Source of the DNA: Akkermansiaceae bacterium
Lineage (GTDB): Bacteria; Verrucomicrobiota; Verrucomicrobiia; Verrucomicrobiales; Akkermansiaceae
NCBI GenBank assembly: GCA_029242935.1
Contig: JAQWSX010000116.1
Coordinates: 1-53,303 of the forward strand
Reading direction: 5' to 3'
DNA: 53,303 nt
The notes under the pieces were generated by a model. It was not told where the DNA came from. It saw only the letters and a list, made by a program, of their open reading frames with translations, and made no database searches. Below, one piece after another: positions 13,754 to 18,150 of the stretch. The translations under genes and the position numbers were made by a program. Position 1 is the stretch's first letter, and every line of letters starts with the position of its first letter.

Positions 13754-14065
13754 TTAACCAAGACGAAATACAATCCGCGCCTTGGTCGTATCATACGGAG
13801 ACATCTCCATTTTGACACGGTCGCCGACAACGAGGCGAATGAACCGTTTTCTCATTTTTCCGGAGATGTGCGCGAGAACTTCATGACCACTCGGGAGAGC
13901 CACCTTGAACATTGTTCCTGCTAGAACAGATGAGATCGTCCCTTCAATCTCGACAGACTTCTGCTCGCTGCCTTCCTCCGAATTACGATTACTCTTGTCG
14001 ACATTACGCCGGCCGCGACGCCGGCCACCGCCGCCGCCTCTTCGAAAATTTCTTGGTCTAGCGAT
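13754..14065 (-). CDS. infA: Translation initiation factor IF-1, non-canonical start, Arg/Gly-rich N-terminal extension
   Basis: The frame ending at TAA (13754-13756) encodes an unmistakable IF-1 S1/OB fold: VEIEGTISSVLAGTMFKVAL, then GHEVLAHISGKMRKRFIRL, then GDRVKMEMSPYD and KARIVFRLG. IF-1 binds the 30S A site with IF-2 and IF-3. An in-frame TAA is at 14069-14071, and there is no ATG, GTG or TTG before the ATG inside AGTMFKV, which would lose the first strand. The given start is an ATC at 14065, giving 103 residues with the extension [20 protein letters not shown]. An ATT at 13948 would give a 64-residue minimal form. No Shine-Dalgarno site precedes either codon at normal spacing. The Gly/Arg codons read as genuine coding sequence, which favours the long form. 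Confidence 0.85.
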   Translation of the reverse strand: MARPRNFRRGGGGGRRRGRRNVDKSNRNSEEGSEQKSVEIEGTISSVLAGTMFKVALPSGHEVLAHISGKMRKRFIRLVVGDRVKMEMSPYDTTKARIVFRLG

Positions 14066-14192
14066 AACTTAAAATAGTTGGATTTGTGCAGGGCAAAGTG
14101 CGCCGCCGGCGGACTATGTGGTCTCAAAACTTCCTTAGCAATGGAAAAAAAGGTGATTTAATGGCCTGTTTATCGGAAACAGAATATCCCCA

Positions 14193-14222
14193 TTGAATCT
14201 TATCAACATATCGCGATATGTA
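14193..14222 (+). promoter_or_regulatory. Candidate sigma-70 promoter of metH
   Basis: TTGAAT (14193-14198), an 18-bp spacer and TATGTA (14217-14222) give a plausible vegetative promoter with four matches in each box. The predicted leader to the ATG at 14277 is only about 50 bases, too short for a cobalamin or SAM riboswitch. A perfect palindrome lies inside the spacer and covers the -10 box. Confidence 0.4.
14206..14221. promoter_or_regulatory. 16-bp perfect palindrome, probable repressor operator of metH
   Basis: ACATATCGCGATATGT equals its own reverse complement over all 16 bases and lies 55 bases before the metH start, between and over the predicted -35 and -10 boxes. Perfect AT-flanked palindromes of this size are typical sites for ArsR-like dimeric winged-helix repressors. 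SAH-responsive ArsR-family regulators of the methionine cycle are known in Proteobacteria. No regulator gene lies nearby, so its identity is inference. Confidence 0.55.
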
Positions 14223-14276
14223 GATTTGAACTTGAAAATCATTTCATTCTTCCGAAAGTCCGCACAAGACGAGCCA

Positions 14277-15365
14277 ATGACAACTCACCTTAGCGAAGAA
14301 CTCAAATCAGCCCTCTGCGAGCGTATCCTAGTCCTCGATGGAGCCATGGGCACGACTATCCGTGGTTATGGACTCTGCGAATCAGATGCCCGTGGCGAAC
14401 GTTTTCAGGACAATCGCGAGGACCTCTTGAATAACGGCGACATCCTTTCCATCACCCAACCTGACGTGATTGGCGACATCCACAAACGTTTTTACGAAGC
14501 CGGATCTGACATCTGCGAAACAAATACCTTCTCTGGCACTGTTTTGGCTCAATCTGAATTTTTCGTCGAAGATCCCCGGAAAACCGGCGGCACCAAAGAT
14601 CCTGAATTCTTTGAGAAACAAGTTCTCAACAACAGCGAACTTCAGGACCTAGTCCACGAACTTAATATAAAATCGGTCCAGCTTGCCAAAGAGCAAGCCA
14701 ACCGAGTTTCCCAAAACGACGGACGTAAACGTTATGTCGCCGGAGCCATAGGCCCTTTGACTGTTTCCCTCACCAACGTCGTCGACCCGAATGACACCTC
14801 ATTCCGCCCCGTCACCTTCGATCAGGTCAAACAAACCTACCGCCACCAAATCGATGCTCTCTTGGAAGCAAACTGCGATATTCTCATGGTTGAAACCATC
14901 TTTGACTCCCTTAACGCCAAAGCAGCTCTGGTTGCGATCAAGGAATCGAGAACCGAAGCTCCCGTCATCATTTCGGCCGCCGTTGGTCGTGGTGGCGAAA
15001 CCATGATCTCTGCCCAAAAAGTCGAAGCGCTCTGGAACACCTTCGCTCATATCGATCCCCTCGCGATTGGCCTCAACTGCTCTCTTGGTCCAGATCTCAT
15101 GGAGCCCTTTCTCCGCGACCTCGGAAAAGCAGCCACCACTCACATCTCGTGCTACCCCAATGCCGGACTCCCAAACCCGCTTGCTCCGACAGGTTTCGAC
15201 CTCGAACCACAGGATATGCACGATTACATTGCCGCCTTTGCCGATGCCGGACTCCTCAACCTGGCTGGCGGATGTTGCGGAAACACTCCCGAACACATCG
15301 CCGCCATCGCCAAATCAGTACAAGGCAAATCCCCACGTCCCGTCCCCACACTTGCCACCGCGTAG
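14277..15365 (+). CDS. metH: Methionine synthase, homocysteine-binding module (split MetH, part 1)
   Basis: This 362-residue protein equals the N-terminal homocysteine methyltransferase barrel of cobalamin-dependent MetH. It opens with ERILVLDGAMGTTIRGYGL. Later come ETIFDSLNAKAAL, the first zinc cysteine in IGLNCSLGP, and the paired zinc cysteines in LAGGCCGNTPEHI. It holds homocysteine as a zinc thiolate for methylation by methylcobalamin. The ATG at 14277 is chosen because it begins the conserved part; a TTG at 14193 overlaps the promoter. It stops at 15365, and the remaining domains lie in the next gene 46 bp away. Confidence 0.95.
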   Translation: MTTHLSEELKSALCERILVLDGAMGTTIRGYGLCESDARGERFQDNREDLLNNGDILSITQPDVIGDIHKRFYEAGSDICETNTFSGTVLAQSEFFVEDPRKTGGTKDPEFFEKQVLNNSELQDLVHELNIKSVQLAKEQANRVSQNDGRKRYVAGAIGPLTVSLTNVVDPNDTSFRPVTFDQVKQTYRHQIDALLEANCDILMVETIFDSLNAKAALVAIKESRTEAPVIISAAVGRGGETMISAQKVEALWNTFAHIDPLAIGLNCSLGPDLMEPFLRDLGKAATTHISCYPNAGLPNPLAPTGFDLEPQDMHDYIAAFADAGLLNLAGGCCGNTPEHIAAIAKSVQGKSPRPVPTLATA

Positions 15366-15411: not shown

Positions 15412-18150
15412 ATGTCCCCTGTCCCACGTTTCCTTCGACTCTCCGGTACCGAAGCTTACAATCATACTCCTGACAAAAATTTCCTAATGATCGGAGAGCG
15501 GACCAACGTCGCCGGCTCTCCTCGCTTCCGAAAATTGATTAAGGAAAACAAGCTGGAAGACGCTCTCGAAGTCGCTCGCCAGCAGGTCGAAAATGGTGCA
15601 AACGTCATCGACATTTGCTTCGACGACGGCCTGATCGACGGGAAATTCATGATGGCCAAATTCCTCGACCTTATTCAGGCCGAACCCGACATTCAGGCCG
15701 TCCCTATCATGGTCGATTCCTCAAAATGGGAAATCATTGAAGAAGGCCTCAAACACCTTCAGGGCAAGGGCATCGTCAACTCCATCTCTCTCAAAGAAGG
15801 CGAAGAAGCTTTTATAACCAACGCGAGACACATCCTCAACTACGGAGCGGCCGTCGTTGTCATGGCCTTCGACGAACAAGGTCAGGCCGCCACCTACGAG
15901 GACAAATGTCGTATCTGCAAACGCGCCTACGACATCCTTGTTGATGAGGTCCGCTTTCCACCCCAAGACATCATCTTCGACCCCAACATTCTCACTGTTG
16001 CCACTGGCATCGAAGAGCACAACAACTACGCCCTCGATTTCATCAACGCCACTCGCTGGATAAAGAAGAACCTTCCCTTCGCAAAAGTCTCCGGAGGCGT
16101 CTCCAATATCTCTTTCTCATTCCGCGGTAACAACGCCGTTCGCGAAGCCATGCATTCGGCCTTTCTTTACCACGCCACTCAAGCCGGAATGGACATGGGT
16201 ATTGTCAACGCCGGCATGCTCGAGGTTTACGATGAGATTCCAGAGAACCTTCTCACCGCAGTCGAAGATGTCCTTCTCAACAAGGACGATGAAGCAACCG
16301 AACGCCTTCTCGACCTAGCTGAAGAATTTAAAGGCCAAGGATCCAAGAAGCTCGTTGAAGATCTCAGTTGGCGAGAACAACCCGTCGAAAAACGTCTCGA
16401 ACACTCCCTATTGAGGGGTATTGATAAATTTATTGACCAAGACACTGAAGAAGCCCTTTCAAAGTACGAGAAACCTCTGACCGTCATCGAGGGACCTCTT
16501 ATGGATGGTATGGGCATTGTGGGCGACCTCTTCGGAGCCGGGAAAATGTTCCTGCCGCAGGTCGTTAAATCCGCCCGAGTTATGAAGAAATCCGTAGCGT
16601 GGCTTGAGCCACTTATGGAAGAGGAACGCGAGGAGAAAATTATCGCGCAAGCGTCCCGCCTTTGTTCGGAGGACTCCACTCTCTCCATATCAGAAGCACG
16701 CGCTATCGCCACCAAGTCCTTTTCGAACGGTAAAGTCATCATGGCCACCGTTAAAGGGGATGTTCACGACATTGGCAAAAACATCGTCGGTGTAGTACTC
16801 TCCTGCAACGGCTTTGATGTTGTCGACATGGGTGTGATGGTCTCCTGCGATAAGATCCTCGATGCAGTCGAAGAGCATGACGCTGATATCATCGGTCTCT
16901 CCGGGCTCATTACCCCTTCGCTCGACGAAATGATTACCGTCGCCAAAGAGGCCGAAAAACGAGGCTTCGGAGAGAAAAACATCCCAATCCTGATCGGAGG
17001 AGCCACGACCAGCGCCGCCCACACCGCCATCAAAATTGCGGGACACTACACAGGCCCACTTGTTCACGTCCTCGACGCTTCCCGGTCTGTTCCCGTCACA
17101 ACCGCTCTTCTGTCCGAAGATCGACAAATTTTCATCACCACCAACGAAGAAAACCATCAAAAGGCTCGAGAAAAATTTAATGGAACAAAAAAGAAGGCCG
17201 CTCTCTCCATCGAGCAAGCCCGCGCCAATAAGGTCAGTATCGACTGGAAAAGCTACGCCCCACCCATTCCTGAATTTACCGGGACCCGCGCCATCAAGTC
17301 CCAGTCCCTGCGCGAACTCGCAACCTACATCGACTGGACCCCTTTCTTCCACACCTGGGAACTACGTGGTGTTTGGAACTCCGAAACCGAGACACTCAAA
17401 ACCCGGAATAAAGAAGGAGGAAAGGTCGCTAAAGAACTCTACTCTGAAGCAAAAGAACTTCTCGAAAAAATCATCACCGAAAAGCGCTTCACCGCCTCCG
17501 GAATTTATGGGTTTTTTCCCGCCAAAGCAGAAGGAGATGACATTCATCTTCCCGATCACAACGTCACCTTCCACACCCTTCGCCAACAAAATAAAAAGTT
17601 CGAAAAACCCAACTATGCCCTCAGCGACTACGTGGCTCCCAAGAGCGACCACCTCGGGGGCTTTGTCGTTGGCATTCACGGCGCGGATGAATGGGCGGCC
17701 GTACTTCGCGAACAGAACAACATCGACGAAGCTCTCATGGTGCAAGCGCTTGCTGACCGTTTCGCCGAAGCTTTTGCTGAACTCTTACATCACCGGGCCC
17801 GTATCGCTTGGGGAATCGAACGTCCGGGACAATTTAGCCAATCGGAACTCATCCACGAAAAATACCAGGGAATTCGCCCTGCTCCCGGCTACCCGAGCCA
17901 GCCCGACCACACCGAGAAGCGCATCCTTTTCAATCTTCTCCAAGCTAATGAGAAAGCCTCTGTCGAACTCACCGAGTCTTGTGCGATGCATCCTGGCTCG
18001 GCGGTTTGCGGGCTCTACTTCTCCCATCCCGACTCACACTACTTTATGATCGACAACCTTCAGAAGGATCAGATCAAAGACTATGCCGAGCGGAAAGAAC
18101 TGAGCATGGAAGAAGTTGAAAAGTGGCTAGGACCATGGCTAGGTTACTAG
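15412..18150 (+). CDS. metH: Methionine synthase, folate/cobalamin/activation modules (split MetH, part 2)
   Basis: The 912-residue protein carries the rest of MetH. The pterin-binding barrel begins near 20 ([20 protein letters not shown]). A helical cap follows at about 320-440. The Rossmann B12 domain has the base-off signature [14 protein letters not shown] with its Co-ligating His. The C-terminal SAM-binding reactivation domain (about 600-912) includes [12 protein letters not shown] and [19 protein letters not shown]. Methyl groups pass from methyl-tetrahydrofolate to cobalamin and on to homocysteine held by the preceding protein. Together the two make about 1275 residues, close to one-piece E. 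coli MetH (about 1227), so the split is at the Hcy/folate module boundary and nothing is lost. Confidence 0.96.

Follow-up and report, generated by a model that had tools for sequence, protein, structure and literature searches.

Introduction

The start codon of a bacterial gene can itself be an element of control when the gene encodes an initiation factor. According to the sections of the papers cited here, IF-3 rejects start codons other than AUG, GUG and UUG, with IF-1 supporting the fidelity of IF-3 (PMC4611024), and the presence of AUU (E. coli) or ATC (Streptomyces) at the start of infC, the gene of IF-3, leads to a homeostatic feedback (PMC5472188). In a reconstituted system, the reading of AUU by a CAU anticodon is disfavoured as IF-3 rises (PMC10158994, in the part cited). 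The infA gene described below, which encodes IF-1, resembles these infC genes in being an initiation-factor gene with an evolutionarily conserved putative start of the class rejected by IF-3. It differs from the autocontrolled infC in that its product is not IF-3, and its putative control would be exerted by IF-3 in trans with the assistance of IF-1 (PMC5472188, in part).

Two further systems are close enough to be compared. Streptomyces sigR, whose GTC start is repressed by IF-3, is another gene with a non-canonical start and, like infA, was mis-annotated for that reason; it encodes a sigma factor, however, its codon is GTC rather than AUC, AUU or AUA, and its control has been shown by experiment (PMC5472188, in part). 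The chloroplast infA of Chlorella and tobacco shares a non-AUG start with the gene studied here, but it is an organelle gene and its UUG lies outside the class discriminated by IF-3 (PMC9845219, in part, citing Hirose 1999). As regards the joint supply of these proteins, the initiation factors are approximately equimolar and the mechanism of their coordination in E. coli 'is not obvious' since the genes are scattered, as an excerpt from 2019 puts it (PMC6511841).

Among the literature matches listed, whose coverage of the literature is incomplete, no bacterial infA starting with AUC, AUU or AUA (hereafter AUH) is named, and no autoregulation of infA by IF-1 is documented in the literature covered. 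A survey of genes biased toward non-AUG starts reportedly has infC among them and may list infA with GUG or UUG.

The infA locus in the window

The window is a stretch of 53,303 nucleotides from an Akkermansiaceae bacterium (assembly GCA_029242935.1, contig JAQWSX010000116.1), in which infA lies on the minus strand. The features referred to in the text are the following.

13754..14065, minus strand: infA coding sequence when read with ATC as first codon, 103 aa and the TAA stop
14063..14065, minus strand: ATC, proposed start codon (fMet); the coding signature begins after it
14066, minus strand: T at -1 (U-1), which might pair with A37 in the initiator tRNA, from base counts
14069..14071, minus strand: in-frame TAA two codons 5' of ATC
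13964..14062, minus strand: Arg/Gly-rich N-terminal extension of IF-1, from reading of the sequence
13760..13963, minus strand: IF-1 OB-fold domain, matching TIGR00008 at residues 36-103 of the 104-residue frame
13910..13912, minus strand: first in-frame ATG, within the OB fold (GTMFKV), an implausible start
14088..14106, minus strand: small hairpin predicted within the putative leader, weak
14113..14141, minus strand: promoter-like TTGCTA-17-CATAGT, for which the leader would be about 40 nt

Read on the minus strand, the gene begins TAA (14071-14069) GTT (14068-14066) ATC (14065-14063) GCT AGA CCA AGA AAT TTT and ends with TAA (13756-13754). The product passes the IF-1 equivalog model (TIGR00008, 90.2 bits against a cut-off of 61.15), the frame scores 78 bits against the Pfam eIF-1a model, and the HISGKMRK segment is present in the OB fold. 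Codon-by-codon reading of the window confirmed the central claim of the earlier note, namely that no ATG, GTG or TTG occurs in the infA frame between the TAA and the OB fold; the ATT that it placed at 13948 is in frame as well. Its statement that the gene escapes the usual ORF callers also holds: the standard ORF list gives nothing for infA but a 52-aa fragment (13754..13912), because the first in-frame ATG is that at 13912. This ATG was rejected as a start owing to its location inside the OB fold.

The assembly is a MAG, 85.5% complete with 4.5% contamination, and infA is the sole convincing IF-1 gene found in it. A second match, on contig C131 of the same assembly, narrowly exceeds the Pfam cut-off (32.8 against 30.2). 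It was rejected as a real IF-1, being below the TIGR00008 cut-off (42.3 against 61.15), devoid of HISGKMR and adjacent to a selB-like gene. This diverged IF-1-like OB-fold gene (L002, 1501-1707, in G000) lies directly 5' of its neighbour, which reads like selB and which we take to be selB-like on that reading. A weak second match resembling it is present in many genomes of the same family.

Two further observations concern the proteins encoded at the locus. In many members of the order, IF-1 has an N-terminal extension rich in Arg and Gly, of about 35 residues in the window and about 100 in Akkermansia muciniphila (L060, L190-L204); the whole of E. coli IF-1 is 71 residues long (PMC4611024, in the part cited). 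Divergent from infA, methionine synthase is apparently encoded by two ORFs on the plus strand (14193-15365 and 15412-18150), the homocysteine methyltransferase domain being separate from the pterin/B12/activation part.

Start codons across the order

The searches covered 145 genomes of the family, of which 138 gave an infA match at E 1e-15, and 112 genomes of the order, 108 with infA. The 204 infA loci that were read comprise 64 delivered by the searches, the window's own included, and 140 fetched stretches, the matches of the order search being covered in part. AUH starts are present at 90 of these 204 loci (75 AUC, 8 AUU and 7 AUA), 111 loci start with ATG and three are without a call (G020, at a contig edge, G427 and G482). 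Most calls were made by script, with 87 AUH (74/6/7) and 110 ATG; one ATC (G286), two ATT (both in genus code g5) and one ATG (G041) were added by eye. The AUH caller checked just AUC, AUU and AUA at the aligned place, and its motif rule also matched 11 loci that were counted as ATG after reading. The ATG caller picks the ATG nearest to the OB fold, and some of its 110 calls may therefore be off in families f2-f4.

The 90 AUH loci belong to 13 genus codes of the window's family (g1, g2, part of g3, g4, g5, g6, g8, g9, g28, g171, g172, g173 and g174) and to two of family f6, where all three loci are of this class. ATG is found within the window's family in g7, g10, g27 and the remainder of g3. 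An ordinary ATG at the same place in relatives had been named in the earlier note as an argument against a non-canonical start; this argument does not apply to the window's genus and 14 other genus codes, but an ATG does occupy that place in three sister genera (g7, g10 and g27) and in part of the Akkermansia-like genus. In a phylum-wide search, the 30 best-scoring loci delivered, which are not a random sample, all have a canonical codon (ATG, GTG or TTG) where the start is expected.

Among 80 loci from named genomes, which overlap the main set, 35 are AUH, 43 are ATG and two are undecided. Seven named cultured strains divide into three with an AUH start preceded by a Shine-Dalgarno sequence and four with ATG and no such sequence.

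Akkermansia muciniphila CSUN-56: AAGGAG-6-ATC
Roseibacillus persicicus KCTC 12988: AAGGA-5-ATC
Persicirhabdus sediminis KCTC 22039: AAGGAG-7-ATA
A. glycaniphila, Haloferula luteola, H. rosea and Luteolibacter marinus: ATG, without Shine-Dalgarno

At the infA start, A. muciniphila has ATC AGC CCG in the place of the ATG AGT CCA of A. glycaniphila.

Sequence context of the start codon

Shine-Dalgarno sequences of at least four bases, 4-12 nt from the start, precede 53 of the 87 script-called AUH infA genes (54 of 88 with G286) against only one of the 110 ATG genes. None of the 20 loci of the window's genus has one, so that a ribosome-binding site of this kind is not seen there; among the 39 larger ORFs of the window, listed mechanically from their most upstream start, five have one, each of four bases. 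The base preceding the codon shows a second difference. T is found at -1 in 85 of 87 AUH genes (86 of 88 with G286) and in 53 of 110 ATG genes, for a Fisher value of 4e-16 that ignores kinship. We presume that base pairing between this U-1 and A37 in the initiator tRNA is possible, and for infA such pairing is an extension of ours.

A motif chosen post hoc, AACC[CA]A within 30 nt before the start, is present in several genera, at 31 of 87 AUH and 2 of 110 ATG infA genes. It also precedes one of the 39 window ORFs and some infC genes.

Upstream of the start, a promoter-like layout 45-50 nt 5' of the ATC occurs at 17 of the 20 same-genus loci against 5 of 1000 single-base shuffles, the pattern having been chosen post hoc; the TTGCTA-17-CATAGT of the window is not listed by a generic promoter scan. 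Folded singly, 17 leaders form small hairpins with a mean z of -1.5 (z below -1 in 11 of 17), but the leader alignment yields no consensus pairs. A conserved RNA structure at the infA start was rejected (z 0.72, alignment without consensus pairs), and Rfam has no match in the window.

infC in the same genomes

The infC gene was found in 56 genomes and 45 of its loci were read, with a script that ignored codons less than five from the N-E/D-x-I-R motif. At 44 of the 45 loci an AUC, AUU or AUA is present where the N-terminal basic segment begins. Nine of these 44 have a canonical codon as well, either upstream or in between. The genome of the window has ATA at the expected place, and its infC appears to start at AUA. 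This start is itself deduced, because in many infC frames, including that of the window's genome, an ATG that the script disregarded lies four codons ahead of the motif.

The single exception, G028, has GTG. This genome is Akkermansia-like and its infA starts with ATG (L156), and the two genes may have left non-canonical starts together. The start classes of infA and infC are not strictly coupled, since G032 and G035 combine an ATG infA with an AUH infC.

Proposed mechanism

By comparison of sequences, infA has a start of the infC type, that is AUC with no usable canonical codon. The reading that we favour, with a probability of about 0.62, is that infA is subject to start codon discrimination by IF-3 and IF-1 jointly with infC, both the AUC start and the feedback being deduced. 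What the comparison shows is the lack of other good starts, the conservation of the codon and its context, the codon class of infC and a CAU initiator tRNA in a relative. The proposal can be briefly summarized as follows. The gene would encode a functional IF-1 and would be translated from AUC, or from AUU or AUA in some relatives. The ordinary initiator tRNA would read the first two bases of the codon, and initiation would be aided by the U at -1 and, in many relatives outside the window's genus, by a Shine-Dalgarno sequence as well. The output of infA would decrease when IF-3 and IF-1 are abundant compared with 30S subunits and increase when they are in short supply, because IF-3, helped by IF-1, discriminates against AUC, AUU and AUA. 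As infC apparently starts with AUA in the same genome, IF-1 and IF-3 would share one translational feedback and be matched to each other and to the ribosomes. An extension of the logic of infC autocontrol to infA is plausible in this setting.

The most serious alternative accepts AUC as the real start but gives it the role of a fixed brake: being weak, the codon would keep the level of IF-1 low, with no feedback from IF-3 or IF-1. Such a brake would agree with the range of Shine-Dalgarno strengths in relatives, from none to AAGGAG, which looks as if a set-point had been tuned, and with the incomplete coupling of infA and infC starts in G032 and G035. GUG or UUG would suffice for this purpose, however, yet the codons called are AUC, AUU and AUA, which are those discriminated by IF-3 (PMC4611024, in the part cited), with the proviso that the caller checked these three only; and infC has the same codon class. 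A fixed brake is considered less likely, at something over one chance in four.

Position of the start codon

Initiation at the ATC was evaluated by comparing loci of the same genus. The search of 58 related genomes gave a match at E <= 1e-3 in 57, in some through the weak second gene only. ATC is kept at 20 of the 21 same-genus infA loci read; the remaining one, G020, is close to the beginning of its contig and seems to be misassembled in its N-terminal part. In the 20 other rows, the ATC and the preceding T are invariant. Mean column entropy 5' of the ATC is 1.42, 1.43 and 1.39 bits at codon positions 1, 2 and 3, against 0.17, 0.07 and 0.72 bits over the 11 codons that follow it, so that the sequence behaves as coding after the ATC and not before. 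Of the two features whose conservation the earlier note had proposed to compare, the ATC is conserved and the TAA only in part, the latter being kept two codons upstream at only 8 of 20 loci.

A start elsewhere, whether further upstream, at the GTT before the ATC, at ATT 13948 or in an upstream frame joined by a frameshift, is improbable. What speaks for it is that at 31 of the 87 script-called AUH loci at least one canonical codon precedes the OB fold within the open frame, the other 56 having none. The upstream canonical codons mostly lack a Shine-Dalgarno sequence, however, whereas AAGGAG-type sequences are found about 5-8 nt 5' of ATC, ATT or ATA in many genera. In the window, the in-frame TAA at 14071-14069 precludes a more distant start in the infA frame, and the GTT is replaced by GCT, ATT, CTT or ACT at other loci of the genus. 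The case for 13948 is somewhat different. The aligned codon is ATT at 11 of 21 loci, ATC at 6, GTG at 2 and GTC or GTA at 2, so that a codon usable as AUU, AUC or GTG is available at 19 of 21, and most of the OB fold would be retained. The segment from the ATC to 13948 evolves as coding sequence, which disfavours this start, and 13948 was rejected as the sole start for that reason; it could serve as a second one. The earlier note had named AUC, or else AUU, as the probable start, and the comparison strongly supports AUC as the codon from which infA translation would begin, AUU at 13948 being less likely.

Initiator tRNA

Decoding of AUH codons by the ordinary initiator was weighed against the existence of a special initiator tRNA that reads AUC, AUU and AUA, which would make these codons normal starts for the lineage. 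In a complete Akkermansia-like genome whose infA starts at AUC, the initiator tRNA has the anticodon CAU and an A29-U41 pair, and by reading it has C1 opposite A72 and A37 (L446). No other initiator-like tRNA is present among the 38 loci of this genome that were run in ARAGORN; this set derives from 52 tRNA matches, the other fourteen being ten long ones and four duplicates. Across the phylum, the initiator core was matched with at most three mismatches in 56 of 60 genomes, the window's included, and exactly in 51. A search pattern for the initiator tRNA, GGGNTNATNACCC, returned mostly chance occurrences among the matches listed.

The usual pair at the first position of the anticodon stem in the initiator tRNA of most bacteria is G29-C41. 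Its replacement by A29-U41 could be taken as a sign of a special initiator, as could the fact that the four genomes without a core match (G027, G029, G033 and G346) all have an AUH infA, two of them, G033 and G346, being 94% and 97% complete. The A29-U41 stem is also seen among the listed core matches, which span the phylum. Given the CAU anticodon and the spread of the same core, a special initiator tRNA was rejected as very improbable, with the four AUH genomes lacking a core match left over.

Evolutionary history

That the codon reflects an error of sequencing or assembly, or that the gene is decaying, is the least credible explanation, with a negligible chance of being correct: although the window comes from an incomplete MAG, ATC at 20 of 21 same-genus loci argues against a sequencing slip, three cultured strains from other genera have a codon of the same class, the OB fold is intact and conserved, the assembly has no better IF-1, and error is in the main refuted by this comparison across genus and cultured strains.

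The history of the start was followed on an rpoB tree of 43 genomes, on which the division between AUH and AUG requires three changes with G286 scored AUC and four with it scored ATG. The tree was built with a quick method, has three partial rows and does not contain A. glycaniphila under that name. With the other families as outgroup, the distribution reads as one gain of AUH before the window's family and f6 parted, followed by its loss both in a subclade of Akkermansia-like genomes and in the clade of g7, g10 and g27. The codon class has in any case been long conserved in infA, being present at 90 of 204 loci in two families with three changes on the tree.

A broader proposal would be that Akkermansiaceae and its sister family produce both IF-1 and IF-3 from starts that these factors themselves proofread, with extended U-1:A37 pairing and the strength of the Shine-Dalgarno sequence tuning the leak, the whole acting as an ancient joint thermostat that matches IF-1, IF-3 and 30S subunits. 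We hold this wider version at even odds.

Significance

In a much studied family, IF-1 genes may be missed or shortened by gene callers restricted to ATG, GTG and TTG. If the joint control of infA and infC is true, a start codon class common to both genes and proofread by IF-3 and IF-1 would constitute a simple mechanism for the coordination of these factors. Such control could be put to the test in Akkermansia muciniphila, a species of the human gut that is available in culture.
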